Origin: Bradyrhizobium arachidis
GTDB lineage: Bacteria; Pseudomonadota; Alphaproteobacteria; Rhizobiales; Xanthobacteraceae
Direction: 5' to 3'
Length of the DNA stretch: 64,000 nucleotides
Assembly: GCF_024758505.1 (NCBI RefSeq)
Contig: NZ_CP077970.1
Span: 2,790,001-2,854,000 of the forward strand
The notes beneath the pieces were generated by a model. That model had not been told where the DNA came from, ran no database searches, and worked only from the letters and a program-made list of their open reading frames with translations. The first letter of the stretch is position 1. The number at the start of each line of letters is the position of its first letter. Below are positions 96-16,920 of the stretch, piece after piece. Made by a program: the position numbers and the translations under genes.

Positions 96-112
96 AACTA
101 TACCGTATAGTT
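96..112. promoter_or_regulatory. TetR-type operator, copy 1
   Basis: AACTATAC-C-GTATAGTT is a perfect 8-bp inverted repeat around one central base. It lies 18 bases upstream of the minus-strand start at 78 and about 140 bases upstream of the plus-strand gene at 254. The same sequence recurs at 2425-2441 (one mismatch) and 16904-16920 (exact). This 17-bp, AT-rich perfect palindrome is typical of TetR-family operators. Copy 2 lies in the promoter region of the tetR gene at 1684-2346, so that protein is the most likely binder. Confidence 0.75.
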
Positions 113-253
113 CATATACAGCGCGGATCGCGGCGTGTGTCAAGCGCGGAAGCTCACAAGCCGGTGTTCTTCCGGGGCTGATGATGGGACTTCGGCGTGA
201 GGCTCCGCTTCCCGTTCGAAATGCCAATGCTTCAACGGAGAAGGGAATTCGAT

Positions 254-541
254 ATGTTCAAGTACACGACGGCCGTGATGCTGGTGGCTCTGTCTGCCAA
301 TGGCATTGTCCTGGCGCAGGAGAATCGCGGGACCGCCGAGCAGAGGGCCGCGTGCGCACCCGACGCATTTCGCCTCTGCGCAAGCTACATTCCTGACGCC
401 ACGAATGTGGAAGCGTGTCTCAGGCAAAGAAAGTCAGACCTGAGCGATGCTTGCAGAGCCGTCTTCGAGCAGGCCGCGGCCATTGCTTCGGTCAAGACCA
501 CAGGATCGCACCGGTATCAGGGCACAAGGGATGAGGAATGA
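254..541 (+). CDS. Small exported cysteine-containing protein
   Basis: This 95-residue protein starts at ATG 254, preceded by a GGAG-type ribosome binding site near 236-239. A longer frame from 197 would put a charged stretch before the signal peptide and is less likely. Residues 1-22 form a signal peptide (MFKYTTAVMLVALSANG then LAQ). The mature part has four spaced cysteines, including CAPDAFRLC, a later ACLRQRK and a DACRAVF motif. This pattern matches small periplasmic proteins common in bradyrhizobia, of unknown function. The stop codon TGA (539-541) lies just before the next gene, so the two are probably co-transcribed. Confidence 0.65.
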   Translation: MFKYTTAVMLVALSANGIVLAQENRGTAEQRAACAPDAFRLCASYIPDATNVEACLRQRKSDLSDACRAVFEQAAAIASVKTTGSHRYQGTRDEE

Positions 542-545
542 TCGG

Positions 546-983
546 ATGAATACGATCTATTTTCCCGCCTTCGCGGCGTTCGGGGGCTCGGCCTTCGGCG
601 CGATTTCCACGATCGTGACGGGATGGGTGACCCGCCGCCGCAGGCTCCGCGAGCGCCATCATGCCCACGCGGTCTCAAAGCGCGAAAAGCTGTATCGAAG
701 CTTCATCGAGGAGGCGTCCCGGCTTTACGCGGACGCGCTGACAAGCGACAAATCCGAGATCCCGGCGCTGGTGAATTTGTATGCGCTCATCGGGCGCATG
801 CGAATTCTGTCCAGCGATGAGGTCGTCCATGCCGCGGAGCGGGCCGGCCGGCTGATCATCGAAACCTACCTTGCACCGAACACGTCGTTCGTCGACCTGC
901 CGGGCTTCATGGAAGAGATGGACCCGTTACGGGAGTTCGGCGAGGCCTGCCGACGCGAAATGCAGACGACTCCGTCGCGCTGA
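546..983 (+). CDS. Hypothetical membrane-anchored protein
   Basis: A 145-residue protein starting at ATG 546, chosen because a GAGG ribosome binding site at 534-537 is well placed; an in-frame ATG at 531 is possible. The N-terminus (about residues 5-25, FPAFAAFGGSAFGAISTIVT) is one hydrophobic segment. It is followed by a very basic stretch (TRRRRLRERHH), the classic stop-transfer signal, and then an amphipathic helical cytoplasmic part. No family is recognised with certainty. It sits 4 bases after the small exported protein and 8 bases before the tetR gene at 992, so these three look like one transcription unit. Confidence 0.6.
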   Translation: MNTIYFPAFAAFGGSAFGAISTIVTGWVTRRRRLRERHHAHAVSKREKLYRSFIEEASRLYADALTSDKSEIPALVNLYALIGRMRILSSDEVVHAAERAGRLIIETYLAPNTSFVDLPGFMEEMDPLREFGEACRREMQTTPSR

Positions 984-991
984 GGCCGAAC

Positions 992-1660
992 ATGAGCGAG
1001 GTCGCCTGGACGCTCCCGGTCGAAGCATCGTGCACCCACGAAAGAATCGTGCAGGCGGCGATCCGGCTGTACCGCGAGATCGGCCACCGGAAGACCACGG
1101 TTGCCGACATCGCTCGCGGTGCGTCAATGTCTCCGGCAAATCTTTATCGGTTCTATTCGTCCCGGCAAGCGCTGGACGAAGTTGTCGTCGCGGGGCTGCT
1201 AGGGGAGGTGTCTGCGGCAGCCACAGATGCAGCGCGAAGCAGTCGCTCAGGCCTGGAGCGGTTGAATGCGACCCTTCAGGCGATCTCCCGGCTGCATGAA
1301 AATCGACTGGCAAACGATGTCCGATTGCACGAACTGGTGGTTGCTGCGGGACGAGAGAACTGGTGGGCCAGCTTATCTCACGCGGACCGGCTTCGCGACG
1401 TTGTGCGGTCGATCATCGCGGCGGGACAGGCCAGCGGCGAATTTCGGCCAGGAAGCCCGATAGCGCTGGCTTGCTGTCTGCTTGACGCGATGGATGCATA
1501 TCTCAATCCATCGCGCATCAAGGTGGCCGCTCTCGGGCCGACATTCAACGAGATGATGAGCTTTTGCGCGGGCGCGCTCAGCAACGCACCGTTCCGGAAC
1601 GCGGCGCCGCGGCAAGTCACCGGCGTGCGGTCTGATTTGCGCGACCGGCTGACCAATTGA
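992..1660 (+). CDS. TetR/AcrR family transcriptional regulator
   Basis: A 222-residue protein with an N-terminal TetR-type helix-turn-helix at about residues 17-63. The recognisable core is RIVQAAIRLYREIGHRKTTV followed by ADIARGASMSPANLYRFYSS. The C-terminal ligand/dimer domain is divergent, so no inducer can be predicted. A GAGG ribosome binding site precedes the ATG. It follows the hypothetical membrane protein by 8 bases. It is convergent with a second tetR gene (1684-2346), with only 23 bases between their stops. No palindrome of its own was found close upstream, so it is the weaker candidate for binding the 96-112 operator. Confidence 0.85.
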   Translation: MSEVAWTLPVEASCTHERIVQAAIRLYREIGHRKTTVADIARGASMSPANLYRFYSSRQALDEVVVAGLLGEVSAAATDAARSSRSGLERLNATLQAISRLHENRLANDVRLHELVVAAGRENWWASLSHADRLRDVVRSIIAAGQASGEFRPGSPIALACCLLDAMDAYLNPSRIKVAALGPTFNEMMSFCAGALSNAPFRNAAPRQVTGVRSDLRDRLTN

Positions 1661-1683
1661 ACTTAGCCAGGCGGATTGCCCGC

Positions 1684-2346
1684 TCATGGCGTCCAGTCTG
1701 CCTCACAAGCCGCAAGGAAGAAGCCGACTCGTTCACGCATGAAATTTGACAACTCCCGTCTTAGTTCCTTCGGCGGTTCTCCCACCAGAGAACGAAACAG
1801 CATCGGCAGCAGGATCAAATCGAGGAAGATCTGAGCGGTGGCGAGGCTTCGTTTGCCGCGGAAGGGACCCTTTGGCGCCCGCGCAAGCTTCTGCGTCGTT
1901 TCGTTCAAAAGCAGGGAAATGGCACTAACGGAGCGGTCGCGAGCCGCATCGTGGACGTTGCGGCTCAACTCGGGAAAACGCTGGGCTTCGGCAATCGTGG
2001 CGCGAACCATGCCCAGCGATTCTTCCATGACCTTTTCCACGATCGCGGTGCCGAGGCTCGTGAGCTTATCGTGCAGGGTACGGCCCTCGGGCTCGAAGCC
2101 TTCGAAATCCGTCAGTCCGCTGATGGTGCGGGCCACCACAGCGGCGAAGAGGGCCTCCTTGCCAGGAAAATGGGCATAGATGGTTGGCTTGCTCGCGGGT
2201 GCCATTTCCGAGATGTCGTCGATGCTGGCGCTGCGATAGCCCTTTTCGAGAAAGAGCTGCTGAGCTGCGTCGAGAATTCGGGCCTGCACGTCACCGGCAA
2301 GGTCTTTGGGTGGTCTGCCCCGTTTGGGGCCGCTCTTCTTGGTCAT
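1684..2346 (-). CDS. TetR family repressor of the adjacent RND efflux operon
   Basis: A 220-residue protein starting at ATG 2346 with GGGAG about 8 bases upstream; a TTG at 2361 is an alternative. A lysine/proline-rich leader (TKKSGPKRGRPPK) precedes the TetR DNA-binding domain at about residues 20-65 (ILDAAQQLFLEKGYRSASID then ISEMAPASKPTIYAHFPGKE). The C-terminal half resembles the AefR-like ligand domain found in repressors of RND pumps. The gene is divergent from the efflux operon. The 17-bp palindrome at 2425-2441 lies about 80 bases upstream, which fits autorepression and control of the pump. The binding assignment is inferred from position. Confidence 0.88.
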   Translation of the reverse strand: MTKKSGPKRGRPPKDLAGDVQARILDAAQQLFLEKGYRSASIDDISEMAPASKPTIYAHFPGKEALFAAVVARTISGLTDFEGFEPEGRTLHDKLTSLGTAIVEKVMEESLGMVRATIAEAQRFPELSRNVHDAARDRSVSAISLLLNETTQKLARAPKGPFRGKRSLATAQIFLDLILLPMLFRSLVGEPPKELRRELSNFMRERVGFFLAACEADWTP

Positions 2347-2424: not shown

Positions 2425-2441
2425 AAATATACGGTATAGTT
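2425..2441. promoter_or_regulatory. TetR-type operator, copy 2, in the tetR/RND divergent region
   Basis: This is the same palindrome as at 96-112, read on the other strand, with a single mismatch in the left arm (AAATATAC-G-GTATAGTT). The flanking TTTATTT on the right also matches copy 1, so similarity extends to more than 20 bases. It lies between tetR (start 2346, minus) and the kinase-like/RND operon (start 2550, plus), where a repressor could control both directions. A TTGACA hexamer lies nearby at 2391-2396, but I see no good -10 at standard spacing. Confidence 0.75.
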
Positions 2442-2549
2442 TATTTAGAGGGTTGCTGAGGTCTGTCAGGACCGGCGACAGCCTTCTGGATCGTCGGCGG
2501 CCGCAGGGTTGCGGCGTTGGCCGCCGATCATCCGATTCACCCTAGGAGA

Positions 2550-3407
2550 ATGACTTTGACGAGGAAGGACCCGCACCATCAGCAAGACGGCGTCCTGTTG
2601 CGCGAATTGCGTCACAGAGTCGACCAGGGAATCGTCTCGGCGATCGGTCTGGTCTCGGCTGCGGCCGTCCGGGCCGACGGGGCAGAAGCCAAGACTGCCT
2701 TGAGCGAGGTCGTCGAGCTGTTGCACGGCCATGCCGAACTGCATCGGGCGCTCGCAATGCCTCAGGGCAAAGCCCTCAATGATGCGGCGACTTACATCCG
2801 CAAACTTGGCTGCGGCTTGCGCCGGTCCCTGCTGGATCCAATGAACATCCGGCTGGCATTCGCAACTGAGTCTCTCCCGCTTCAGTCGGAGCGGTGCTGG
2901 CGGCTTGGCCTGATCGTCCACGACCTCATCGCAAGGGCAGCGAAGCACGCGCATTTCGACGCGCGCTCCGGCGAGATCAAGGTCAAGCTGTCGCGCATCG
3001 GCGCGGTCGTAAACTGCGTCGTGCTGGATAATGGATCACGGTCGACGCGGGCGGACGCCGGCCGCGAACTCCAGATCAGCAATGACCTTGCGAAGGGTCT
3101 CGGCGGACGGATCGAGCATGCCGTCGCCGCCGAGTTCACCTCAGTCGTCCTCTCCTTCTACCTGAACGAACGGGAGCGACAGGCGAGTCGGTCGATGGCG
3201 ACGCGCCGCATGAGGTCGCCACGCAGGCCGTACGCCAAGTCGGCCGTGACGCTTGGCTCAGGCACGGATCAGGCCGGGCGCCCGGCCTCCATCGCCCCGG
3301 ATCCAACCTTGCTACGAGGTCATCCGAACGAATTGGCCTCGCTCTCCCGAGGCTCAGATGCGTTGGGCGGGCTGTTGTCACCATCCCACGGCATGGATGC
3401 ACTATGA
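2550..3407 (+). CDS. Histidine-kinase-like protein (HWE/HisKA_2 type), first gene of the RND operon
   Basis: About 285 residues. The N-terminal helix LLRELRHRVDQGIVSAIGLV resembles the phospho-acceptor H-box of HisKA_2/HWE kinases (ELRHRVKN-type), with the candidate phospho-histidine in RHRV. The second half has a degenerate HATPase fold, with VVLDNGS as a possible G1 box and GLGGRIEHAVAAEFTSVVLS near the end. The N-box and a full G2 box are not obvious, so activity is doubtful. The last 75 residues are basic and low complexity. AGGAG lies one base before ATG 2550, so TTG 2556 may be the real start. Its stop overlaps the adaptor start (ATGA), so it is co-translated with the pump. No sensor domain or response regulator is adjacent. 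Confidence 0.7.
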   Translation: MTLTRKDPHHQQDGVLLRELRHRVDQGIVSAIGLVSAAAVRADGAEAKTALSEVVELLHGHAELHRALAMPQGKALNDAATYIRKLGCGLRRSLLDPMNIRLAFATESLPLQSERCWRLGLIVHDLIARAAKHAHFDARSGEIKVKLSRIGAVVNCVVLDNGSRSTRADAGRELQISNDLAKGLGGRIEHAVAAEFTSVVLSFYLNERERQASRSMATRRMRSPRRPYAKSAVTLGSGTDQAGRPASIAPDPTLLRGHPNELASLSRGSDALGGLLSPSHGMDAL

Positions 3408-4531
3408 AAATCCACATTTCGAACCACACCATAACCGTTCGGTCCCAGCGCTCGCTGAGGTCTCTCGGCGGGCTTGCCGCGGCGCTTTTCGCGGCGGCGC
3501 TCGGCGGCTGCGATGATCAAGCCGCCGCTCCCGGTCCTCGCGCTGCGTTCGTGCGCACGGAGATCGTGCAGCCGAAGGACCGGCGATCCTCGATCACCCT
3601 GACCGGCGAAGTCCAGGCCCGCTTCCGCGCCGATCTCTCGTTCCGCGTCAGTGGTCGCGTTCTCGCGCGCTATGCCGATGTCGGCACCTACGTCAAAGCC
3701 GGCGAGGTGCTGGCGGTGCTCGATCCCGCCGAACAGCAGGCCGATGTCGATGCCGCCCATGCGGCAGTGTTATCTGCGGAATCGCAGTTGCGCGTTGCGA
3801 GAGTCACTTTCGAGCGGCAGACGGCGCTAATCGCGGGTGGCTTCACCACTCGCCCGGTCTACGAGCAGGCGCAGGAAGGATTGCGAACTGCGGAAGGCGT
3901 GCTTGAGGCGGCAAAAGCGCAGCTCGGAACGGCGAAGGACGCCCTTGGCTTTACCGCGTTGCGCGCTGAAGCGGATGGCGTGATCACCGCGCGCAATCTC
4001 GAGGTGGGGCAGGTCGTACAGGCTGCGCAACCCGCGTTCTCGCTGGCGCAGGATGGCGAGCGGGATGCCGTTTTTGACGTCTATGAATCGATCTTCCTTG
4101 GCGAGCCCGATGGGCACCGCGTTGCGCTTGCATTGGTCTCCGACGCCGGCGTGACGGCGGCCGGCCACATCAGGGAAGTCTCGCCGGCGATCGATCCGAA
4201 GAGCTCGACGATCCGCGTCAAGGTATCGATCCAGGATCCGCCGACCGAAATGACGCTCGGAAGCGCCGTTGCAGGAACCGTGACGGCAAAGCCGCAACAG
4301 CTGATCGCATTGCCCTGGAGTGCATTGATGGCGGCGGGCACCAAGCCCGCAGTCTGGACCGTCGATCAGGCGACCCGGACGGCGTCGCTAAAGCCCGTCA
4401 TCGTCGGGGGCTACGAGGCAGGCGAGGTGTTGATCAAGGCAGGTCTCGAGCCTGGCGAGCGCGTCGTGACTGACGGCGGCAAGCTGCTGAGCGTTGGCCA
4501 GCCAGTGACGTACGAGGGAGATCGGTCATGA
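3404..4531 (+). CDS. RND efflux periplasmic adaptor (membrane fusion protein) 1
   Basis: A 375-residue adaptor that would link the inner-membrane RND pump to an outer-membrane channel. The N-terminus is hydrophobic and ends in a lipobox-like LGGC, so it is probably a lipoprotein. The body has the usual order: barrel-sandwich/lipoyl half (SFRVSGRVLARYADVGTYVK, about residues 75-95), an alpha-helical hairpin rich in Ala/Gln/Glu (about 105-165), the second lipoyl half (ADGVITARNLEVGQVVQAAQ), then beta-barrel and membrane-proximal domains. It overlaps both neighbours by four bases, which implies translational coupling. The operon encodes no outer-membrane TolC-type protein. Confidence 0.92.
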   Translation: MKIHISNHTITVRSQRSLRSLGGLAAALFAAALGGCDDQAAAPGPRAAFVRTEIVQPKDRRSSITLTGEVQARFRADLSFRVSGRVLARYADVGTYVKAGEVLAVLDPAEQQADVDAAHAAVLSAESQLRVARVTFERQTALIAGGFTTRPVYEQAQEGLRTAEGVLEAAKAQLGTAKDALGFTALRAEADGVITARNLEVGQVVQAAQPAFSLAQDGERDAVFDVYESIFLGEPDGHRVALALVSDAGVTAAGHIREVSPAIDPKSSTIRVKVSIQDPPTEMTLGSAVAGTVTAKPQQLIALPWSALMAAGTKPAVWTVDQATRTASLKPVIVGGYEAGEVLIKAGLEPGERVVTDGGKLLSVGQPVTYEGDRS

Positions 4532-5601
4532 AGAGCCGCGCAATGATTGTCGCCGGCACGCTCGCGTCAGCTCTCGCGGTTGCCGGGTGTCAGCAGGAGA
4601 CGAAGGCACCGGAGGCCGTGCGGCCCGTGCTCTCCACAGTCCTCGAATCGAAACAGGGGGACGGCACGATCGCTGTGGGCGTCGTTGAGCCCCGCTACAA
4701 GACGAATCTCGGCTTCCGCGTGCTTGGACGCTTGACCGCGCGTCCCGCTTATGTCGGCGACCTCGTCAGAGAAGGGCAGATCGTGGGCACGATCGATTCG
4801 ACGGCCCTCGAGCTTGCCGTGCGCTCCGCCAAGGCAGAGGTTGCGAAGGCTGAGGCGCAGCTTGCGACCGCCAGAGCGAAGGAGGAGCGGCAGCGAACGC
4901 TCATCACGAGCGATGCGACCACAAAGCAGACGCTGGATAATGCCGAGCAGGCGCGCGCAGGGGCGGAAGCTTCGCTCGCGCATGCTCAGGCAAACCTGAC
5001 CAAGGCGATCGAGCAGTTCGGCTATGCGCAGATCAAGGCCGACTTCGACGGCGTGGTTACCGCAGTCGGCGCGGAGGTCGGCCAAGTGGTCTCGCCCGGT
5101 CAAAGCGTGGTGACGCTCGCAAGGCCGGACGTCCGAGAGGCCGTCGTCGATATAGGGGAGGAATTCCCGGTCCCGCTCGAAATCGGTCTGCCATTCACGG
5201 TGAGCCTGCAACTCCTTCCCGCCGTTCAGGTCGACGGCAAAATTCGCGAGATTGCGCCGCAGGCCGATCCGGTCACGCGCTTGAGACGGGTCCGCGTTGC
5301 GCTGAGCAATCCACCCTACAGCTTCCGCCTCGGCGCCACCGTCACGGCAAAGCCCAGGGAGCAAGGTCCGATGTTGCGCCTGCCTGCATCCGCAGTGCTC
5401 GCAAAGGATGGCGCCAATTTCGTCTGGGTCGTCGATCAGCCCGCCGGAACCGTGTCGTTGCAGAAAGTCGAGCTCGTCGCTGACCGAGCCGGCGCTCACG
5501 TCACCGGCGGACTTGCTCCCGGTGCGCGCGTCGTCACCGCCGGAATCCACAGCCTCACGCCAGGACAGCAAGTCCGCATCGAACAGGATGAAAAGCCATG
5601 A
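4528..5601 (+). CDS. RND efflux periplasmic adaptor (membrane fusion protein) 2
   Basis: A 357-residue second adaptor with a clear lipoprotein signal (lipobox LAVAGC at about residues 16-21). The lipoyl halves are GFRVLGRLTARPAYVGDLVR and FDGVVTAVGAEVGQVVSPGQ, flanking a long Ala/Glu/Lys helical hairpin. It is homologous to, but diverged from, the adaptor just upstream. Operons with two adaptors and one RND transporter are known, and the pair may form a mixed hexamer. The start overlaps the upstream stop (ATGA) and its stop overlaps the pump start. Confidence 0.92.
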   Translation: MKSRAMIVAGTLASALAVAGCQQETKAPEAVRPVLSTVLESKQGDGTIAVGVVEPRYKTNLGFRVLGRLTARPAYVGDLVREGQIVGTIDSTALELAVRSAKAEVAKAEAQLATARAKEERQRTLITSDATTKQTLDNAEQARAGAEASLAHAQANLTKAIEQFGYAQIKADFDGVVTAVGAEVGQVVSPGQSVVTLARPDVREAVVDIGEEFPVPLEIGLPFTVSLQLLPAVQVDGKIREIAPQADPVTRLRRVRVALSNPPYSFRLGATVTAKPREQGPMLRLPASAVLAKDGANFVWVVDQPAGTVSLQKVELVADRAGAHVTGGLAPGARVVTAGIHSLTPGQQVRIEQDEKP

Positions 5602-8600
5602 AGTCGTTCAACCTTTCCGACTGGGCGCTAGGCCATCGCTCGCTCGTCTGGTATTTCATGATCGCCTTCATGGCGGCTGGACTCTTTGCGTACCTTCAGC
5701 TTGGTCGTCAGGAGGATCCCGACTTCACGATTAAGACCATGGTGATCCAGGCTCAGTGGCCGGGCGCGTCACCCGAGGACATGACGCGCCAGGTCACCGA
5801 CAGGATCGAGAAGAAGCTCGAGGAGCTGGAATCGCTCGACTACACCAAGAGCGTGACGGTTGCGGGCCAGACCACGGTCTTCGTCTATCTGCGTGACAGC
5901 ACCAAGGCTGCCGACGTCAAGCCGACCTGGGCCCGCGTCCGCAACATGATTGCGGATATCAAGGGCGAGTTTCCACAAGGAGTGATCGGGCCCGGCTTCA
6001 ACGACCGCTTTGGCGACGTGTTCGGCAACATCTATGCCTTCACCAGCGACGGCTTGACCCAGCGTCAGCTGCGCGATGAGGTCGAGGACATCCGCGCCAA
6101 GGTCTTGACCGTGCCGGATGTGGGCAAGGTCGACATTCTGGGCGCGCAGGACGAGGTCATCTATCTCGAATTCTCCACCCGCAAGATCGCAGCCTTGGGT
6201 CTCGACATCCACTCCATCATGGCTTCTCTGCAGGGGCAGAATGCGGTTGCGCCCTCCGGCGTATTCCAGGAAGGGCCCGAGCGGATCAGCGTGCGGGTGA
6301 ACGGCCAGTTCACCTCCGAGGCAAGCCTGAAGGCGGTCAATCTGCGGATCAACGATCGGTTCTTTCCGCTGACCGACGTCGCAAACATCACGCGCGGCTA
6401 CGTCGATCCGCCACAAACACTGTTCCGATACAACGGCCAGCCCGCGATCTCGCTCGCGATCGGCATGAAGTCCGGTGCAAATCTGCTTCACTTCGGTGAG
6501 GCACTGAAGGAGGAGATGTCGAAGATCATTGCCGACTTGCCGATCGGCGTCGGCGTGCATCTGGTCGCGGACCAGCCGGTGGTGGTGGAGCATGCGGTGT
6601 CCGGCTTCACGGAGGCCTTGTTCGAGGCGGTGATCATCGTGCTCGGCATCAGCTTTCTCAGCCTCGGCTTGCGCGCCGGCCTCGTCGTCGCGATCGCAAT
6701 CCCCCTCGTGCTTGCCATCACCTTTGTCGTGATGGCCTATGCGGGGATCTCTCTGCAGCGCATTTCGCTTGGTGCCCTGATCATCGCGCTGGGCCTGCTT
6801 GTCGACGACGCCATGATCGCCGTTGAAATGATGGTAGCCCGGCTTGAGGTGGGCGATCCTCTCGAGAAGGCGGCAACCCACGTCTATACTTCGACCGCAT
6901 TTCCGATGCTGACCGGCACGCTGGTCACCGTTGCCGGATTCATCCCGATCGGGCTCAATAGCAGCAATGCCGGCGAGTTCACCTTTACGCTGTTCGTTGT
7001 GATCGCGGTCTCTCTCATCGTCTCCTGGATCGTGGCGGTGCTGTTCACGCCATTGCTGGGTGTCACCATCCTGCCCGCCAAAATGAAGGGTCATCATGGC
7101 GAGAAGGGCCGCTTGGCGCAGCTCTTCGCGCGCCTGCTGCTGTTCTGCATGCATCACCGCTGGGCCACCATCGGCGTGACGGTTGCGGCCTTTCTGCTGG
7201 CGCTGTTTGGCATGAACTTCGTGCAGCAGCAGTTCTTCCCGTCATCGGATCGGGCCGAGCTGGTGATCGACTGGAACCTGCCGCAGAATGCATCGATCGC
7301 CGATTCCAATGCGCAGATGGCACGCTTCGAGACCGAACAGCTTCAGGGCAACGCGTCGGTTGATCACTGGTCGACCTACGTCGGGATCGGCTCGCCGCGC
7401 TTCGTCCTGTCCTTCGACGTGCAGACCGCAAACACCTGGTTCGGTCAGATGGTGGTCGTGACCAAGGGCGGCATCAAGGCGCGCGACCAGCTCAAGGCAC
7501 AATTCGAGGACTATCTCAGGAAGACGTTCCCCGGGACCGACACCTACGTCAAGCTGCTCGAGGTCGGGCCGCCGGTGGGGCGTCCCGTGCAGTATCGCTT
7601 GAGTGGGCCCGACATCGCGAAGGTGCGAGATCTTTCGCAGAAGCTCGCTGGCATCGTACGGAGCAGCCCTGAGCTTAGCAACGTTGTGTTCGACTGGATG
7701 GAGCCGGCGCGCGTCGTCAAGGTCGACGTCCTCCAGGACAAGGCGCGACAGCTTGGTGTGACATCGGAAGACATTGCCACGACCTTGAAGTCCGTGCTCG
7801 AGGGCACGCCGATTACCCAGGTGCGCGACAGCATCTATCTCGTCAATGTCACGGGACGTGCGACCGCACCGGAACGCGCTTCCATCAGCACCTTGCGCGA
7901 CTTGCAATTGACCGGGCTCGGCGGTCAATCCGTGCCGCTCGGGGCCGTGGCCAATCTGCGTTACGAGCTCGAGCAGCCGACGATCTGGCGGCGCGCGCGG
8001 ATCCCCACCATCACGTTGAAGGCCGGTATCGTCGGCAGCGTGCAACCCAAGACCATCGTGGATCAGCTCGCACCGAAGGTTGCGGCATTCACCAAGGAGC
8101 TGCCGGCGGGGTATTCGGTGAACCTCGGCGGCTCCGTCGAGGAGAGCGCCAAGAGCCAGGCGCCGATCGTAGCTGTCGTTCCGCTCATGCTGTTCGTCAT
8201 GGCCACGGTTTTGATGGTTCAGTTGCAGAGCTTCCATCGCTTGTTCCTGGTGTTCGCGGTTGCGCCGCTCGCCGTGATCGGCGTGGTCATGGCCCTGCTG
8301 CCGAGCGGTGCTCCTCTCGGCTTCGTCGCCATCCTCGGCGTGCTCGCCCTGATCGGCATTCTGGTCCGAAACTCGGTGATCCTGATCGTGCAGATCGAGG
8401 ACCTGAAGAAGGAGGGGCGCCCGGCCTGGGAAGCCGTCGTGGAGGCGACCGAGCATCGCATGCGACCGATCCTGCTGACCGCAGCAGCCGCAAGTCTCGC
8501 GCTGATTCCGATCGCGCGCGAGATTTTCTGGGGGCCGATGGCCTACGCGATGATGGGCGGCATCATCGTCGGCACACTGCTGACGCTGTTGTTCCTGCCG

Positions 8601-8747
8601 GCGCTTTATGTGGCCTGGTTCCGGATCCATCCCGATCACGGCGACCAATCATCGGCGCATGAGTCCGCCGCGCCTCTGCACGACACGTCTTCGCCGGAGC
8701 GGATCTCCGCGCCCAAGCCGGTGCCGGTCCTCGAAACGCAATTCTAA
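5598..8747 (+). CDS. RND family inner-membrane efflux transporter (AcrB/HAE-1-like)
   Basis: A 1049-residue proton-driven drug/solvent exporter of the usual RND length. The first membrane helix is at about residues 14-34. A large periplasmic loop follows, then the TM2-TM6 block with the proton-relay pair in LGLLVDDAMIAVEMM. A second periplasmic loop and the TM8-TM12 block follow (VPLMLFVMATVLMVQLQSF onwards, with GILVRNSVILI). The tail after TM12 is short and hydrophilic. It is translationally coupled to the two adaptors. The divergent tetR and its operator at 2425-2441 suggest induction by a ligand of that repressor. The substrate cannot be read from the sequence. Confidence 0.94.
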   Translation: MKSFNLSDWALGHRSLVWYFMIAFMAAGLFAYLQLGRQEDPDFTIKTMVIQAQWPGASPEDMTRQVTDRIEKKLEELESLDYTKSVTVAGQTTVFVYLRDSTKAADVKPTWARVRNMIADIKGEFPQGVIGPGFNDRFGDVFGNIYAFTSDGLTQRQLRDEVEDIRAKVLTVPDVGKVDILGAQDEVIYLEFSTRKIAALGLDIHSIMASLQGQNAVAPSGVFQEGPERISVRVNGQFTSEASLKAVNLRINDRFFPLTDVANITRGYVDPPQTLFRYNGQPAISLAIGMKSGANLLHFGEALKEEMSKIIADLPIGVGVHLVADQPVVVEHAVSGFTEALFEAVIIVLGISFLSLGLRAGLVVAIAIPLVLAITFVVMAYAGISLQRISLGALIIALGLLVDDAMIAVEMMVARLEVGDPLEKAATHVYTSTAFPMLTGTLVTVAGFIPIGLNSSNAGEFTFTLFVVIAVSLIVSWIVAVLFTPLLGVTILPAKMKGHHGEKGRLAQLFARLLLFCMHHRWATIGVTVAAFLLALFGMNFVQQQFFPSSDRAELVIDWNLPQNASIADSNAQMARFETEQLQGNASVDHWSTYVGIGSPRFVLSFDVQTANTWFGQMVVVTKGGIKARDQLKAQFEDYLRKTFPGTDTYVKLLEVGPPVGRPVQYRLSGPDIAKVRDLSQKLAGIVRSSPELSNVVFDWMEPARVVKVDVLQDKARQLGVTSEDIATTLKSVLEGTPITQVRDSIYLVNVTGRATAPERASISTLRDLQLTGLGGQSVPLGAVANLRYELEQPTIWRRARIPTITLKAGIVGSVQPKTIVDQLAPKVAAFTKELPAGYSVNLGGSVEESAKSQAPIVAVVPLMLFVMATVLMVQLQSFHRLFLVFAVAPLAVIGVVMALLPSGAPLGFVAILGVLALIGILVRNSVILIVQIEDLKKEGRPAWEAVVEATEHRMRPILLTAAAASLALIPIAREIFWGPMAYAMMGGIIVGTLLTLLFLPALYVAWFRIHPDHGDQSSAHESAAPLHDTSSPERISAPKPVPVLETQF

Positions 8748-8760
8748 CAAGAGAAAGCAC

Positions 8761-9282
8761 ATGTCTCGCAAAAAACTTCTGATGCTGTCCGTCAGTGCGA
8801 CCATCGCAACGATGACGCTGGCGCCAAATGCAGCATTCGCGCAATTCCCTCCGCCGCCACCCATGGCCGGGCCTCCGCCGATTGCGGCCGGCGGGCTGCC
8901 TCCGCTATCAGCCGGAGGATCTCCAGCGTTCGCGGCGCGCCCTCCGATGGGGCCAGGCGGTCCGCCACGTGCCGGCCTCGGCGGTCCAGCCCCTCGTCTC
9001 GGTGCTGAACCGGCGCCGCGCGGTGCTCTCGCGGCGGCTGGGCGCGGCGGACCGGCAGTGGCGAGTGCGGTTCGCGGCACATCGGTCACCTACAACCGCT
9101 TCGGAGGCTACGGCGGCTATGGCGGATCCCGATATGGCGAGCGCGCCGCCTATGCCGCGGGTGCCTACGCCGCAGGAGCCACTGCCGGCTACGCTTATGG
9201 CGGCTCGCGCTATGGCTATTCCTCGGACAGCGACTGCTACTACGTCTACAGGCGCTATCGGCGCGTTCTGGTTTGCGACTGA
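8761..9282 (+). CDS. Exported Pro/Gly/Ala-rich, then Gly/Tyr-rich protein
   Basis: A 173-residue protein starting 13 bases after the RND gene, so probably the last gene of that operon. Residues 1-28 are a signal peptide (MSRKKLLMLSVSATIATMTL, ending AFAQ). The mature part opens with a proline/glycine-rich segment (PPPPPMAGPPP) and continues into a Gly/Tyr/Arg-rich segment (GGYGGYGGSRYGERA, YAYGGSRYGYSS). It ends in a short motif with two cysteines, DSDCYYVYRRYRRVLVCD. Similar low-complexity exported proteins are frequent in bradyrhizobia, usually of unknown function; a cell-envelope role is a guess. Composition alone makes homology hard to judge. Confidence 0.7.
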   Translation: MSRKKLLMLSVSATIATMTLAPNAAFAQFPPPPPMAGPPPIAAGGLPPLSAGGSPAFAARPPMGPGGPPRAGLGGPAPRLGAEPAPRGALAAAGRGGPAVASAVRGTSVTYNRFGGYGGYGGSRYGERAAYAAGAYAAGATAGYAYGGSRYGYSSDSDCYYVYRRYRRVLVCD

Positions 9283-10743: not shown

Positions 10744-10937
10744 ATGAAGGACATCATTCGATACCTGGGAATCGACACACGCGCTCAGATCCTTGCCGAG
10801 CGGTTGTCGCGGTTGCTCGAAGAGCGAAGCGCCGAAATCATCGGAGCGTTCTACCGGAACACCCGGCAGCCGGCGTGTTGTTGGACGACAAAGTCATCAA
10901 GACAATCCTGCTCAAGTCATCGTGGCTGGTCAACTAA
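10744..10937 (+). pseudogene. Degenerate protoglobin-domain fragment (frameshifted)
   Basis: From ATG 10744 the protein reads MKDIIRYLGIDTRAQ, ending IIGAFYRNT, then becomes nonsense. Moving one base at about 10855-10860 restores EHPAAGVLLDDKVIKTILLK and SSWLVN before a TAA at 10935. The first 35 in-frame residues align without gaps to the start of the globin domain of the gene that follows (GID-TRAQIL / [16 protein letters not shown] / ILDGFYR). The fragment therefore looks like the remains of a second globin-coupled sensor, lost by frameshift and truncation before the haem-binding histidine. A sequencing error could explain the frameshift but not the early stop. Confidence 0.6.
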
Positions 10938-10998
10938 GGAGCCCACCCGCGAGCTCCAATGAATTTTACAACCAACGAACTATTTGAAAGGTCGCATC

Positions 10999-12360
10999 AT
11001 GATTTCTTCGTCAACGGCATGCCCCGACAACACGGAGCAGAACCGCCAAGCCAGGATGCAATTCATGGGCATCACCCCGCGAACCGGCGAGCTGTTGCGT
11101 GAATTCTGGACCATCGCCGAGCCAACAGTGCCAAAGATTCTGGACGGCTTCTACCGGCACGTCACGAGCGAACCTAAGCTTGCCAGCATGATCGGCAAAG
11201 ACATTCCCAGGCTGAAAACGGCTCAGGGCACTCACTGGGCGCGGTTGTTCAACGGGCGGTTCGATGACGAATACCTGCACGGAGTGCGCGCCATCGGCCT
11301 GGTTCACAACAAGATCGGCTTGGAGCCGCGCTGGTACATCGGGGGATATAATTTTGTCCTGAACCAGCTCGTCTCGCTCGCGGTCCGGCGATATCGCTGG
11401 CGACCGGCCCACCTCTCAGAACTACTAACTGCGGTGAATTGCGCCGTGATGCTTGACATGGAGATCGCCATTTCCGTCTACCAGGAGGCAATGCTGGCCG
11501 AGCGGGAAGAGCGTCAGGCGAGGGTTCATGCCGCCATCCATGACTTCGACAGTCGGATGAAGGCCGTGTTGGACACCGTCGGTGGATCGGCCACTAACCT
11601 CCAAAGTGCCGCCAATACCTTGGCCGCCAGCGCTTCGCAATCGACCGAGCAGTCAACGGCCGTGGCCGCGGCATCAGAGGAGGCTTCCACGAATGTGCAG
11701 GCAGTAGCTGCGTCGACGGAGCAGCTGACCTCGTCGATTAGGGAGATCGGCCGGCAGGTTTCCGAATCGACTCGAATTGCACGGACCGCGGCTGACCAGG
11801 CCGCCCGATCCGGCGAAACCGTCCAGGGACTTGCTAAGGCGGCTCAACGCATCGGAGACGTGGTGGATTTGATCAGTACCATAGCGGGGCAGACCAACCT
11901 ACTTGCCCTCAATGCGACGATTGAAGCAGCGCGCGCCGGCGAGGCGGGCCGCGGCTTTGCCGTGGTCGCCTCCGAGGTGAAGGCACTAGCGGAACAGACC
12001 GCCAAAGCAACAGGAGAAATTGGCGAGCAGATTCTTTCGATCCAGGGTGCAACGAAGGAATCGGTCGGCGCTATCCAGGAGATCGGCGGCACGATCGGAT
12101 CCGTCAACGAGATTGCCACCGCCATAGCCGCGGCGGTGGAAGAGCAGGGAATGGCCACGGCCGAGATCGCCCGCAACGTCCAGCAAGCGGCACGCGGTAC
12201 TCATGAAGTATCCAGCAACATTGCCGGGGTGAGCCAAGTGGCTGCTGAAACGCGGCAGACGGCCGGCGCGCTGCTGAGCGCATCCGAGCAGCTTTCCAGC
12301 CAGGCTGCATCTCTTCGCCAGGAAGTGGAGACGTTCTTTGTCGAAATCAGAGCTGCCTGA
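10999..12360 (+). CDS. Globin-coupled chemoreceptor (HemAT-like aerotaxis transducer)
   Basis: A 453-residue soluble protein starting at ATG 10999, with GAAAGG 7 bases upstream. Residues 20-180 are a protoglobin (haem sensor) domain. The proximal haem ligand is His103 in [17 protein letters not shown], matching the HemAT pattern. About 190-450 is a methyl-accepting signalling domain with the conserved hairpin tip [20 protein letters not shown] followed by [18 protein letters not shown], which contacts CheA/CheW. There are no membrane segments, as in HemAT. By family it would sense O2 or a related gas and modulate chemotaxis. No che genes lie nearby, so it must signal to an array encoded elsewhere. 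Confidence 0.92.
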
Positions 12361-12435
12361 GAATCCTAGTCGGACGTCGACGAAAACATCTACAATCACG
12401 GTCAATCCAGTGAGCGATGTCGTGACCGCGAATGA

Positions 12436-14592
12436 GTGAGGGACAGCGTGTTCTCAAACGGTAGCGAGCAAAGGCGCACACCTGATCCGTTAAAAGACGC
12501 GATCGATGTCGAGCGAAAGTGCGAGGTTGACTGGAAACGACTGCTCCACACGGCCATTGAAAGCAGCACGCATGGCTTGTGCGTCTTTGACAGTCACGAA
12601 CGATTGGTGATCGGTAACGAGCAGCATCGCGCAATGTATGCGCTAACACATGCCCAAAGCACGCCGGGTCTATCGGTGGACAGCATCCTGGAGAGCCGTT
12701 GTGCGCACGTGGCGATGGCCAGCACAGGAGCGCGGCCTGCCGACTACCTCGCTGCAATAAAGCGAAGAGAAGCGTTCCGGGCTATCTGGGAACTGGAGAA
12801 TGGCTCCTTTGTCGAGCTCGATATGCACCCGATGCCCGACGGAGGCTTTGTCGAGAGACATCGTGATATCACCGAGCTTCGGCTCGCAGAAATTAGGGCT
12901 CAAGCTGCAACGCAGGAGCTGATCGAGAAGCAATATGCGCTCGACCAGGCGGTGATCGTCGCTATCACCGACGTCCGCGGTACGATAACCTACGCCAACG
13001 ACAGGTTTTGCGAGATCAGCGGTTATTCTCGTGAGGAGCTACTCGGAAACAACCATCGCATCCTGAAGTCCGGGGTTCATTCACGGGAGGTCTTTCGGCA
13101 GATGTACCGCTGCCTTACCTTAGGCGAGGTGTGGCGCGGTGAGCTCTGCAACAAGGCGAAGAGCGGCGAGCTCTATTGGGTCGACACGGTCATCACGCCG
13201 CAGCTCGGTCCGGAAGGAAAACCCGTAGCCTATATGGCTATTCGGATCGATATTACAGCTCGGAAGAAGGCCGAAGCGCAAGTCTACCACGCGGCTCGGC
13301 ACGATGCGTTGACCGGTCTTCCGAACCGGGCCGCCCTGCTGGATGGCCTATCGGAGCGGCTCGAGAAAGCCCCGGCGCAACAGCAAAATCTGATCGTCTA
13401 CTTGCTGGATCTTGACGGGTTCAAATGCGTGAACGACACACTTGGACATGCTGCGGGGGACGCCTTGCTCAAGCAGCTGAGTAGACGTCTCAAGTCGACC
13501 ATCGCAGATGGTGATCTGATCGCCCGGCTTGGAGGGGATGAGTTCGCGATCGTGCAGGTCAGCTCTCACGACGAGCGCGAACAGGCCATAAGGCTGTCTG
13601 TCGCTCTGCTCGAAATCGTGGCGAGACCGTTCTCGGTCGAAGCGCAGGACGTCTCGGTAGGAGTGAGCATAGGGATAGCGTTTGCTCCAATAGATGGCCT
13701 CACCGCTTCCGAGTTGCTTTATCGAGCGGATCTCGCCTTGTACCGCGTCAAATCCGAAGGACGGAACGGGTTTCAGTTCTTCGAGGACGAGATGCACAAG
13801 CGGGCGCAATCTCGGAATCAGCTCGTTAATGAGCTGCGTTCCTCCCTGGCTCGTGGCCAGTTCGAACTGCACTACCAGCCAATCTTTGAGGCAAGAACTT
13901 TGCGGCCGCGCGGCGCGGAGGCGCTCGTGCGGTGGCGCCATCCCTCCCAAGGCTTGCTCTATCCGGATCGTTTCATCGGAATCGCTGAGGAAGCGGGGCT
14001 GATGGAGTCGCTGGGGCAATGGGTCATACAAAAGGCATGCGCAGATGCCGTGTCCTGGCCTGAAGAGATCAAGGTCGCCGTCAATCTGTCGCCGGCGCAG
14101 TTTCGGGGTGCGACACTCTTCGATGTCATACTTTGCGTGTTGGTCGAGACGGGTCTTTCGCCGCATCGACTTGAACTGGAAGTGACGGAATCGATGCTGC
14201 TGCAGGACAGGGAAGAAAATCTTCTCCTGTTTCGACAGCTCAAGAATATCGGCGTCTCCATTGCGCTCGATGATTTCGGCATTGGGTATGCCTCGCTCGG
14301 TTCGGTTGTCTCATTCCCTTTTAGTAAGGTGAAGATAGACCGATCGTTCACGCGAGATCTGTTGCAGAAGCCGGCGAGCAAGGCGGTCGTCGCGTCCATC
14401 ATGACGCTGGCCCGTGGACTTGATGTGCAGGTCACGGCGGAAGGCGTCGAAGCGAGCGAGCAGTTGGAGTACTTGCGCGATCAGGGAGTCGATCTGATTC
14501 AGGGCTACTTGCTCGGCAAGCCCGTCCCATGCAGCGAGTTGAACCTCGCCAGCGCGCCGCATTCCGGATTACGGGAAGTCACATGCATCTGA
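12436..14592 (+). CDS. PAS-PAS-GGDEF-EAL cyclic-di-GMP turnover protein
   Basis: About 718 residues from GTG 12436; GTG 12448 with AGGGA upstream is an equally good start. An N-terminal PAS_7-like domain (about 35-150) is followed by a PAS domain (about 165-280, AITDVRGTITYANDRFCEIS). A GGDEF domain carries an intact RLGGDEFAIV at about residue 366. An EAL domain carries GAEALVRWRHP at about 495, plus DDFGIGYASL and KIDRSF. Both catalytic motifs are complete, so both synthesis and hydrolysis of c-di-GMP are possible. The inhibitory RxxD site before GGDEF is ADGD, lacking the arginine, so product inhibition at that site is unlikely. It follows the globin receptor by 75 bases and overlaps the next gene by 10. 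Confidence 0.92.
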   Translation: MRDSVFSNGSEQRRTPDPLKDAIDVERKCEVDWKRLLHTAIESSTHGLCVFDSHERLVIGNEQHRAMYALTHAQSTPGLSVDSILESRCAHVAMASTGARPADYLAAIKRREAFRAIWELENGSFVELDMHPMPDGGFVERHRDITELRLAEIRAQAATQELIEKQYALDQAVIVAITDVRGTITYANDRFCEISGYSREELLGNNHRILKSGVHSREVFRQMYRCLTLGEVWRGELCNKAKSGELYWVDTVITPQLGPEGKPVAYMAIRIDITARKKAEAQVYHAARHDALTGLPNRAALLDGLSERLEKAPAQQQNLIVYLLDLDGFKCVNDTLGHAAGDALLKQLSRRLKSTIADGDLIARLGGDEFAIVQVSSHDEREQAIRLSVALLEIVARPFSVEAQDVSVGVSIGIAFAPIDGLTASELLYRADLALYRVKSEGRNGFQFFEDEMHKRAQSRNQLVNELRSSLARGQFELHYQPIFEARTLRPRGAEALVRWRHPSQGLLYPDRFIGIAEEAGLMESLGQWVIQKACADAVSWPEEIKVAVNLSPAQFRGATLFDVILCVLVETGLSPHRLELEVTESMLLQDREENLLLFRQLKNIGVSIALDDFGIGYASLGSVVSFPFSKVKIDRSFTRDLLQKPASKAVVASIMTLARGLDVQVTAEGVEASEQLEYLRDQGVDLIQGYLLGKPVPCSELNLASAPHSGLREVTCI

Positions 14593-15716
14593 GTCAAACG
14601 AGTAGTCAGGCGCAAGGCCTGACGAACGTGAATGCTGCTCTCTCTCTGCCGCTCGAGCTGGAGGACGCCATCGCGAGCAGCGACGTTCGTCGTCGGGCGA
14701 CCATGCTAAGGCGGATGGCCGATCTTTTTGTTGGATCGGGAGATTTAACCCCGCAACAGACGTCTTTATTTGACGAAGTCATGAGCCGGCTGCTCGGGGA
14801 GGTCGAATCGTCCGCCCGGGTGCAGCTTTCCGAATATCTGGCCGAATGCCCGCGCGAAGCTCGCAAGACGATCAGAAGCCTGGCCCTGGACGACGTCATC
14901 GAAGTAGCCCGACCGATATTGACGGGTTCAGAACAGCTGGAACAGCGGACCTTGGAGGAGGCGGCGGCAACGAAGAGTCAGGCGCATCTGTTGGCGATCT
15001 CAGGTCGGAAGACGATACCCGAACCGGTGACCGAGATTTTGATAGACCGTGGGGACCGGGATGTCGTGCTCTGTGTCGCGGCGAATCCCGGGGCTCGCTT
15101 TTCGGCATTCGGATTTGCCTCCCTCGTGCTGCGTTCCTCCGGGGACGAAGAACTGGCCGTGGCGGTCTGGATCAGAAGTGACGTTCCTCGGCGACAACTA
15201 TTGAAGCTCTTCTCCGATGCCTCTTTGATTGTGAAGGACAGGCTCTGCAAGGAGGATCCGACGAAAGGGAAGGGGATCGAAAAGGCGATCGCTCAGGCGC
15301 TGGACCGACTTCAGGCCCGAACACGGCAACTCTCCCCTGAATTTGTGTCAGGCTCGGCGCGCGTGAGCTTACTCGAAGAGGCAGGCAGGCTGGACGAAGA
15401 CGCTTTGTACGAGTTTGCGAGCTCGAAGCAGTTTTCTGAAACGGTGCTCGCTCTGGCTTCGATGTGCGATGTTCCGGCAGGCGTTGTCGAAAGAGCCTTG
15501 GTCGACGACCGATCGGAACAGATACTCGTCCTGGCGAAGGCTTCGGGATTGAATTGGGATACTACAAAGGCGCTTTTGGTCCTTAAGAGCTCTCCTCGTG
15601 AAACAAGAGACGACCTGGAGAGACTGTTCGAAACATTTTTGCGGCTCAAACCCCAAACCGCGCGCAAGGCCGTTCGATTCTACAGACTTCGCGAGCGTGC
15701 CCTTGCTCAAAATTGA
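14583..15716 (+). CDS. DUF2336 domain protein
   Basis: A 377-residue protein starting at ATG 14583, inside the end of the GGDEF-EAL gene, with GGGAAG upstream. The helical repeat-like sequence (SSDVRRRATMLRRMADLFVG; DEVMSRLLGEVESSARVQLS; RPILTGSEQLEQRTL) is typical of the DUF2336 family of alphaproteobacteria. Members have HEAT-like helices and often lie beside signalling genes; the biochemical role is not established. The overlap with the c-di-GMP gene suggests translational coupling and a shared pathway. No catalytic motif, membrane segment or signal peptide is visible. Confidence 0.85.
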   Translation: MHLSQTSSQAQGLTNVNAALSLPLELEDAIASSDVRRRATMLRRMADLFVGSGDLTPQQTSLFDEVMSRLLGEVESSARVQLSEYLAECPREARKTIRSLALDDVIEVARPILTGSEQLEQRTLEEAAATKSQAHLLAISGRKTIPEPVTEILIDRGDRDVVLCVAANPGARFSAFGFASLVLRSSGDEELAVAVWIRSDVPRRQLLKLFSDASLIVKDRLCKEDPTKGKGIEKAIAQALDRLQARTRQLSPEFVSGSARVSLLEEAGRLDEDALYEFASSKQFSETVLALASMCDVPAGVVERALVDDRSEQILVLAKASGLNWDTTKALLVLKSSPRETRDDLERLFETFLRLKPQTARKAVRFYRLRERALAQN

Positions 15717-15811
15717 GGGTGCTCAGCGAGCGCGACAACGTGAGCATTCGCCGAAGCGGCCTCCAGGAGCGGGGAACGTGGCAGTTAAGTATGGAGCTTG
15801 GAGCATACAAC

Positions 15812-16150
15812 ATGGGCACTCTTCACCTCTTACCTGCAACTCGCAAGGACAGACCCACTCTGCGTCTCCAGGATCCATGCCAAATCACGCCAGATCTTAC
15901 TGACCAATTTGTATCCTTGCAGACCGCAGTGGAGGTGCAGCTTCCGTTGGCTGTTGGCAGATTTGAGAAGGCGGTCGCGGATGTTGACGCGATCGGTCAT
16001 CAACTGCCGTCAGGGGAATTCAAGGATCGCTTCGACGAGGAGCGAGGCGTTCTCGCCGCACAGCTAAATCAGATCAGACAACTGAAGAGCGATCTCCAGG
16101 GCATCTGGACTTCCATGTGTCGAACCCTGAATGATTGCGACGTAAAATAG
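15812..16150 (+). CDS. Hypothetical protein, possible coiled coil
   Basis: A 112-residue protein. ATG 15812 is chosen because GGAG lies 8 bases upstream at 15800-15803; in-frame ATG 15791 is an alternative. The C-terminal two thirds is a charged, heptad-like helical region (VEVQLPLAVGRFEKAVADVD; FDERGVLAAQLNQIRQLK with an extra acidic residue) that could form a coiled coil. Two cysteines lie near the end (MCRTLNDCDVK). No family recognised. Its TAG stop directly abuts the ATG of the LuxR-type gene at 16151, which suggests that the two proteins act together. Confidence 0.55.
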   Translation: MGTLHLLPATRKDRPTLRLQDPCQITPDLTDQFVSLQTAVEVQLPLAVGRFEKAVADVDAIGHQLPSGEFKDRFDEERGVLAAQLNQIRQLKSDLQGIWTSMCRTLNDCDVK

Positions 16151-16714
16151 ATGACAGTCTGCAGCGATCCCGAAACAGTTCAGCAATCCTGGGAGCATAG
16201 GCGGGCTAGAGATCGGGCTGGAGATCAAGTCGACTATGAGATCGCGCGTCAGCTCAACGGACCCTTGATTGCGCTGCTGCTTTACATGAACGAAATCAAA
16301 CGACACAGCCGACAAATGTCTCCGGTTGTGGGGGATCCGGCTTATCTTCAACAGGTCGTTGAAAACGCTCTTCACCAGACCGAGCGGATCTGGGCGATAG
16401 TCAAGCAGGCCGCCACACGCGGTGCATCGGCCCCAGAGATCGGGCCGGAGGACGATGGGGCTGGCGCCGACAAGGAGGGAGATCGCGGGGCAGACATCAT
16501 GGCCCCTTCAGGCTCTAGCCAGATGTTTCTGACGAAGCGTGAACGCGAGGTTCTGAGCCTCGTCAGCAACGGCTACTCCAACAAGCAAGGTGCCCGACAG
16601 CTGAGTATCAGTCCAAGAACGTTCGAAAGTCATCGCGCCGGACTCATCCGAAAGCTCGGCGCGCGAAACACGGCAGATCTCGTCCGACTGGCGCTCTTGC
16701 ATCACGCCGTCTAG
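16151..16714 (+). CDS. LuxR-type HTH transcriptional regulator
   Basis: A 187-residue protein. The C-terminal LuxR/GerE DNA-binding domain is clear at about residues 125-185: LTKREREVLSLVSNGYSNKQ, then GARQLSISPRTFESHRAGLI and RKLGARNTADLVRLALL. The N-terminal half is not a receiver domain and has no conserved phospho-aspartate. Its helix QLNGPLIALLLYMNEIKRHS recalls a HisKA-like dimerisation helix. It is therefore probably a stand-alone regulator rather than a two-component response regulator. It starts directly after the stop of the hypothetical gene before it, and closes the signalling run that began at 10999. Confidence 0.85.
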   Translation: MTVCSDPETVQQSWEHRRARDRAGDQVDYEIARQLNGPLIALLLYMNEIKRHSRQMSPVVGDPAYLQQVVENALHQTERIWAIVKQAATRGASAPEIGPEDDGAGADKEGDRGADIMAPSGSSQMFLTKREREVLSLVSNGYSNKQGARQLSISPRTFESHRAGLIRKLGARNTADLVRLALLHHAV

Positions 16715-16885
16715 GGCGGGCAGATCGAATGTTAGCCGGTCGCCACCAACGCGTCCTGGTTTGCAACTAACAATCACGAACTCCGGACCTTATCGTTGCG
16801 TCAGCGTGTCCAATTGGCTGGGACCAACAGCGTCTGGCGAACGTGGGCTTAATCATTTCCAGCACCAGCTTGTGAATGCGCTCGC

Positions 16886-16891
16886 TTGACA
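16886..16891 (+). promoter_or_regulatory. Candidate -35 element for the exported-protein gene
   Basis: A perfect TTGACA lies at 16886-16891. A -10 element at 15-17 bases spacing (TATACC at 16907 or TACCGT at 16909) falls inside the palindrome at 16904-16920. A bound repressor would therefore cover the -10 region. The transcript would start near 16920 and include the small upstream reading frame at 16985. Confidence 0.5.
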
Positions 16892-16903
16892 GGATCGTTA
16901 ATA

Positions 16904-16920
16904 AACTATACCGTATAGTT
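16904..16920. promoter_or_regulatory. TetR-type operator, copy 3
   Basis: An exact copy of the 17-bp palindrome at 96-112 (AACTATAC-C-GTATAGTT). One further complementary base on each side gives a 19-bp palindrome. It sits 81 bases before the small reading frame at 16985 and 143 before the exported-protein gene at 17047, overlapping the -10 region of the promoter with TTGACA at 16886. It lies 14.5 kb from the tetR gene that most likely makes its repressor. Confidence 0.75.

Follow-up and report, generated by a model that had tools for sequence, protein, structure and literature searches.

The palindrome and its genes

We analyzed a 64-kb stretch of Bradyrhizobium arachidis DNA (genome coordinates 2790001 to 2854000 of the Bradyrhizobium contig; hereafter, the window), in the left part of which a TetR regulator gene, tetR_A1, lies back to back with an operon for a resistance-nodulation-division (RND) efflux pump. 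A 17-bp palindrome, AACTATAC-N-GTATAGTT, recurs around these genes, and we propose that it is the operator of TetR_A1. The window holds exactly three matches at ≤3 mismatches, at 96–112, 2425–2441 and 16904–16920 (0, 1 and 0 mismatches, respectively), the same three that a first-pass annotation of this DNA had pointed out. The features are as follows, with bll and blr numbers denoting orthologues in B. diazoefficiens USDA110:

1..78 (−): start of a 68-residue protein, full open reading frame (ORF) 2789872–2790078, membrane-like by reading; heads a leftward operon ending in a PepSY gene (blr7026 orthologue)
96..112: operator S2, AACTATACCGTATAGTT, separating the leftward small-protein operon from the rightward orf95/orf145/TetR_A2 unit; also in orthologous loci
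254..541 (+): 95-residue protein that by reading begins like a signal peptide; matches nothing in Pfam or NCBIfam
546..983 (+): 145-residue protein, bll7025 orthologue (93%)
992..1660 (+): TetR_A2, with TetR_C_27; bll7024 orthologue (77%)
1684..2346 (−): TetR_A1, with TetR_N and TetR_C_7, AefR-like; blr7023 orthologue (91%); recognition helix KPTIYAHF; proposed repressor
2425..2441: operator S3, AAATATACGGTATAGTT, in the tetR_A1/efflux intergenic region
2517..3407 (+): HATPase-like ORF with an uncertain start codon; HATPase_c_2 match weak, under the Pfam cut-off; bll7022 orthologue
3404..4531 (+): RND periplasmic adaptor 1, bll7021 orthologue
4528..5601 (+): RND periplasmic adaptor 2, bll7020 orthologue
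5598..8747 (+): RND efflux permease, bll7019 orthologue (93%); best solved relative 6vej
8755..9282 (+): 175-residue protein, bll7018 orthologue (69%)
16904..16920: operator S4, AACTATACCGTATAGTT; flanks resemble the promoter of the patatin–acetoacetate decarboxylase (ADC) operon in relatives that carry it right of the pump
17047..17409 (+): 120-residue small exported protein (orf120), signal peptide by reading; follows patatin-ADC behind an S4-type site in relatives; no Pfam or NCBIfam match

Left of the window, beyond the PepSY operon, lie a further site (S1), a 100-residue ORF, a patatin-DUF3734 phospholipase gene and the ADC gene. The pump operon combines two periplasmic adaptors with one permease, the gene content of a TriABC-like system, and the permease matches 6vej far above any other solved structure (1404.7 bits; next 936.4). 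6vej is TriC, and TriABC is a two-adaptor RND pump. TetR_A1 matches TetR_N (PF00440) at 58.7 bits (cut-off 24) and TetR_C_7 (PF14246) at 32.3 bits (cut-off 22).

In the whole genome (9,429,272 bp, one contig) the palindrome has eight places at ≤3 mismatches and six at ≤2, the latter at 2788107, 2790096, 2792425, 2806904, 4717571 and 4719779. The first four fall within 18.8 kb, S1 (2788107) being 1.9 kb left of the window; the other two, at 4.7176–4.7198 Mb, lie within 2.2 kb of each other at a second locus 1.9 Mb away. That locus, at 4.72 Mb, reads site, patatin gene, TetR_B, site, PepSY, and TetR_B is a paralogue of TetR_A1 that also carries TetR_N and TetR_C_7 (60.4 bits for the latter). The three-site, 17-kb regulon first described thus kept its three sites and grew to four sites in 18.8 kb plus a paralogous two-site cluster that has a separate TetR. 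The two 3-mismatch places, 585890 and 1810679, were rejected as operators; they lie inside long ORFs and are at chance level by a reversed-pattern control, which gave 0 places at ≤2 mismatches and 6 at ≤3 in the whole genome.

That the recurrence is due to chance or to a mobile repeat has a negligible likelihood. Six sites at ≤2 mismatches were seen against 0.39 expected from the base composition of the window, none was found in 100 dinucleotide shuffles of the window, and the sites are kept in orthologous promoters of other species. The genome scan at ≤2 mismatches had been set beforehand as a refuting test; it returned these six sites only, all of them intergenic (genes as called in this analysis), and the word is not common away from promoters. 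The placement of each copy in a promoter region needs one correction: the site at 96 sits between two divergent units and does not belong only to the gene at the left edge. We regard the palindrome as a real, conserved operator, most likely that of an AefR-like TetR repressor, ordinary in kind and, as far as searched, new in its assignment.

The candidate reader and the BjG30 locus

TetR_A1 is the likely reader of the palindrome, judging from how gene and site travel together. TetR_A1 matches at E ≤1e-74 numbered 62 among those listed, and the upstream counts come from part of these: 46 of 49 distinct orthologues (54 loci) have a site at ≤3 mismatches in the 220 bp before tetR_A1, and 41 have one at ≤2. 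A second set gave a site at ≤3 mismatches upstream of tetR_A1 in 15 of 15 distinct orthologues (17 records), at least 9 of its 17 loci sharing DNA with the first set. The one-base departure of S3 from the palindrome (an AAATA half) is common to all 30 A1 loci of one comparison set, and for that reason looks tuned; the AAATA half is not present in L231 and L066.

Across 195 Bradyrhizobium genomes, with distant A1-like paralogues (E >1e-74, mostly 38–51% identity) scored as absent, a site at ≤1 mismatch occurs in 49 of the 55 that have TetR_A1, in 31 of the 106 with TetR_B only, and in 0 of the 34 with neither, a group that includes incomplete genomes, which weakens the comparison. Three distinct A1 copies, one in L278 and the second ones in L224 and L234, weigh against TetR_A1 as reader, S3 not being recognizable there. 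The reversed pattern at ≤1 mismatch occurs in 1 of the 195 genomes. Five of the six A1 genomes lacking a ≤1-mismatch site have S3 at 2 mismatches (L276, L277 and L279–L281), and the sixth is L278.

The second copies of TetR_A1 (71–73%) stand beside PepSY in L224 (13774–14433) and L234 (17751–18410), with a degenerate site upstream. Four TetR_A1 orthologues carry one stop inside the match (TAG in G048, G138 and G153; TGA in G116) and have sites upstream; the genes may truly be inactivated, or the stops may be an artifact of the alignment. In G157, which has no TetR_A1, an A-type site lies 430–445 bp before a TetR relative with Tyr at residue 59.

The other regulator of the block, TetR_A2 (992–1660), adjoins S2, and its counterpart bll7024 is genistein-induced in USDA110, so that it could be imagined as the reader instead. 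This is very unlikely. Five genomes (G130, G062, G180, G115 and G025) have no TetR_A2 orthologue (best match 36–42%) and keep the sites, which argues strongly against TetR_A2 and led us to reject it. TetR_A2 also belongs to a different C-terminal family (TetR_C_27), and the distant regulators whose operators are related came up as relatives of A1 and B. Comparison thus supports the first-pass proposal that the palindrome is a TetR operator, very probably read by the 1684–2346 protein.

Sequence comparison identifies the locus as orthologous to USDA110 BjG30 (bll7017–bll7033), published as a genistein-inducible efflux/polyhydroxybutyrate locus. The USDA110 locus, at 7.73–7.75 Mb, has the same gene order from ADC to pump, with identities of 93% for the pump, 79% for the adaptors, 91% for TetR_A1, 93% for the patatin and 91% for ADC; the patatin, ADC and PepSY genes are the orthologues of blr7027, blr7028 and blr7026, and pump and adaptors correspond to bll7019–7021. 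Quantitative PCR primers of the BjG30 study (PMC4070704; 13 of 17 pairs typed) match the examined 35 kb in 25 of 26 cases, at the expected genes. The accessible sections of that study report that four representative BjG30 genes respond to genistein from 5 minutes on, that 12 of the 17 genes are induced 24.6- to 213.9-fold at 30 min, among them bll7025, bll7018 and bll7024, and that deletion of the pump yields genistein-sensitive cells and lighter nodules (PMC4070704). Genistein-type induction of the B. arachidis locus is inferred by orthology with BjG30. Comparison also supports the wiring of an efflux pump with envelope or exported proteins that had been read from the window alone; the partners are not only proteins of unknown role and include a patatin-like phospholipase, ADC and PepSY proteins. 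The combined response is not new as such, BjG30 having already been reported as one genistein-induced block in the same sections (PMC4070704).

USDA110 has five sites at ≤2 mismatches and none for the reversed pattern. Three are at BjG30, namely between bll7022 and blr7023, between bll7025 and the small-protein-PepSY operon, and before blr7027. All 12 genistein-induced genes fall in runs headed by a site, the runs being taken as operons from their spacing, and the induced runs do not reach as far as the non-induced bll7017, blr7031, bll7032 and bll7033. The remaining two sites are in a patatin-TetR-PepSY cluster at 5.187–5.190 Mb (blr4684–4686). The gene after this cluster is the asd orthologue, and asd is given as blr4687 in the accessible part of PMC10888616; counting back from it, the patatin gene is blr4684. 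In a review, blr4684 appears as a patatin-type gene whose expression changes with genistein and does not depend on NodW for this (PMC5793154). All five USDA110 sites therefore lie at two loci separately reported as genistein-responsive. New, as far as searched, are the operator, the protein likely to read it and the connection with the blr4684 locus; BjG30 as one genistein-induced block was known: in the open-licence literature we found no paper naming a BjG30 regulator or operator or describing this operator, and in the searchable part of that literature none linking blr4684 to BjG30 or to an operator.

The patatin operon, site S4 and the second cluster

The patatin-ADC pair occupies two places in different lineages, usually with its own site. 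In the left arrangement (window, USDA110) it lies left of PepSY. In the right arrangement (for example, L222, L225, L226 and L233) it lies right of the pump with a site before patatin and is followed by the 120-residue gene. By eye, the sequence around S4 resembles the right-hand patatin promoter of these relatives, which is why we read S4 as the promoter of a lost patatin-ADC operon. The site and orf120 are probably what remained after that loss, the site now facing the last gene of the operon. Accordingly, S4 does not look like the original promoter of the small exported protein, as it had been described. S4 was not found in USDA110 (genome scan at ≤2 mismatches).

There is an appreciable, if lesser, chance that S4 (16904) is a fossil that controls nothing important now. 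Its flanks and the position of orf120 as the downstream gene of the right-hand operon would fit, as would the finding that, among 30 orf120-family loci inspected over ~3 kb, a site at ≤3 mismatches appears only in that of the window. Against this, both the 17-mer and an upstream CTTGACA are preserved, and 126 bp further on comes an intact ORF that begins like a signal peptide. The orf120 family is multi-copy, with 1–8 matches in each of 195/195 genomes of the genus.

The second cluster carries a sister word, AACGATAC-N-GTATAGTT. In 30 TetR_B loci the recognition helix is KPTVY[AS]RY and the PepSY-side site has G at position 4 in one half, which reads AACGATAC in 29 of the 30 and AACGAAAC in L168. 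The patatin-side site is present in 23 of the 30; among the others, either the locus broke off or no patatin gene was adjacent. The A1 type combines KPTIYAHF with AACTATAC-type halves, and 30 of 30 compared loci have T at position 4 upstream.

A merging of the two systems, TetR_A1 and TetR_B cross-binding as one two-repressor network and not forming two parallel copies, strikes us as rather unlikely. One half of the patatin-side site of TetR_B is a perfect A half-site (AACTATAC) in the B. arachidis genome, reports on USDA110 describe both loci as responding to genistein, and 47 of the 195 genomes carry both regulators. Set against this are the consistent difference between the words (T at position 4 in the upstream site of the 30 A1 loci versus G in one or both halves of each site in the 30 B loci) and the occurrence of each TetR without the other, in 8 A1-only and 106 B-only genomes.

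We offer the hypothesis that residue 59, in the recognition helix, tracks the base at position 4, with His or Tyr reading T and Arg reading G. The 30 A1-type and 30 B loci agree with this. We take residue 59 to be equivalent to His44 of TetR. Searching blindly for palindromes upstream of distant homologues led to mixed results, and a constrained motif, AAC-N3-AC-N-GT-N3-GTT, was used instead. Among the distant relatives with a site, His/Tyr59 goes with T in at least one half and Arg59 with G; the words of the His/Tyr59 relatives are AACTAGAC in Rhizobium and Devosia and AACTGAAC in the presumed FrrA and Rhodobacterales, and such relatives also occur in Streptomyces. Several His/Tyr59 homologues have one T half and one C half. 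Many distant homologues listed in this first set had no site and provide no test of the rule. In a second distant set, a site is present in 15 of 26 loci, every one of which has Arg59 and a G in one or both halves; 14 of these loci are new, the sites of L263 repeating L067 of the discovery set. Only G stands at position 4 in 12 of the 15, the mixed cases being L263 (G/A), L269 (T/T and G/G) and L271 (T/G), and in L252, L253 and L271 the site is ~1.3 kb from the TetR start. An order-level search for further A1 relatives found them in 10 of 249 genomes; four of these belong to the same genus, and the other six had no such site. On the tree only about 3 changes of residue class are needed, hence few independent events.

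The one clear exception to the residue–base rule is L060 (10001–10660, Bradyrhizobium sp. NAS80.1), a natural Arg59 variant of TetR_A1 with T/T sites. In L239 (G189), a TetR_B-like gene with one TGA inside accompanies four sites, every one containing a G-type half. A distant RND pump (23%) and a patatin-DUF3734 gene (67%) lie next to them, and control by the B-type word may extend to an efflux locus there.

A broader scenario, tentative and in our estimate somewhat short of even probability, would be that a flavonoid-stress program of efflux, patatin and PepSY exists twice in Bradyrhizobium under two paralogous TetR repressors, the nearly identical operators being kept apart by recognition-helix residue 59. 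The BjG30 branch would have arisen by a switch from Arg/G to His/T, L271, with an Arg59 relative beside a hybrid T/G site, would be a living intermediate, and cross-talk would be tunable by single changes.

Proposed mechanism and known systems

Drawing on the observed sites, their uniqueness and conservation, their co-occurrence with TetR_A1 and the orthology with BjG30, we consider it probable, with good but not full confidence, that TetR_A1 is a flavonoid-released repressor at S1–S4, paralleled by a TetR_B program; binding, repression, inducer and operon limits are inferred from sequence. TetR_A1 dimers at S3, S2, S1 and S4 would block RNA polymerase: at S3, at the promoters of tetR_A1 and of the two-adaptor RND pump; at S2, at the unit or units on either side; at S1, at the patatin/ADC operon; and at S4, at the small exported protein. 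The inducer would be a 5-hydroxyflavonoid such as genistein, by orthology with BjG30, and release of the repressor within minutes would turn on flavonoid efflux and lipid/polyhydroxybutyrate-acetone metabolism. TetR_B would govern a smaller copy of the program (patatin, TetR_B, PepSY) 1.9 Mb away through the sister operator.

Promoter elements accompany some of the sites. A simple sigma-70 scan gave one promoter-like match at S2, rightward and overlapping the operator. Among 16 S2 regions compared, a rightward TTGACA that overlaps the start of the 68-residue gene is present in 16/16, a leftward TTGACA in 15/16, and a CATATA block beside the operator in 13/16. By eye, TTGAC-type elements lie near S3 and in the right-arranged patatin/S4 class, and none was seen in the left-arranged S1 class.

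Several observations weigh against this explanation. The simple scan found no consensus sigma-70 promoter at S3, S4 or S1. In USDA110, blr7026 (PepSY) is not genistein-induced though it is the last gene of the operon that starts 17 bp from S2. Of 19 left-arranged PepSY–patatin gaps, some from the same genome, 10 have a site and 9 do not; eight of the nine are only 40–83 bp long, and patatin may be transcribed from S2 in these, but the gap in L064 is 432 bp, for which shortness is no excuse. Finally, the accessible part of the BjG30 study suspects a TetR regulator, identifies none and names no operator (PMC4070704).

BjG30 is a strong, fast flavonoid response of a soybean symbiont whose pump affects nodulation, and a 17-bp operator, a candidate repressor and five USDA110 sites make its regulation directly testable. 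The shared operator would also give a reason for blr4684, otherwise an unexplained genistein-responsive gene, and the one-residue operator switch, if true, would be a small testable case of duplicated TetR repressors separating.

Among known systems, BjG30 of USDA110 is the closest, its genes from ADC to pump being orthologous and collinear and the same operator standing at three places; B. arachidis differs in having a block of sensory and regulatory ORFs and S4-orf120 after the pump. This block (9527–16714, from pump operon to S4) holds a PAS-like ORF, a chemotaxis-receptor-like and a GGDEF/EAL-like protein, a further ORF and a LuxR-type regulator, the first three named by reading the sequence and LuxR by domain search. 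Homologues of the PAS-like ORF and of the chemotaxis-receptor-like protein also follow the pump in L281. Beyond orf120, a third TetR of the window (17761–18465) matched TetR_N only.

The blr4684 locus of USDA110 is orthologous to the second cluster, with two sister operators and an AefR-like TetR. FrrA/FreCAB (blr4322) is reportedly, from papers that cite it, a flavonoid-responsive TetR/RND system. A TetR relative at USDA110 4774797 (29%), beside a divergent RND gene, is presumably FrrA; it has AACTGAAC-type palindromes 224–271 bp upstream and differs from TetR_A1 in the middle bases of the palindrome and in its separate pump. In PmeR/MexAB-OprM of Pseudomonas syringae, PmeR is a TetR repressor that works from the tetR/RND intergenic region and that a plant flavonoid releases, and the accessible part of PMC12421961 describes no patatin/PepSY/ADC regulon. 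NalC, the best solved relative (8ke8), is listed alongside PmeR. Action in the tetR/RND intergenic region and the proposed release by a flavonoid are what PmeR would share with the TetR_A1 scheme.

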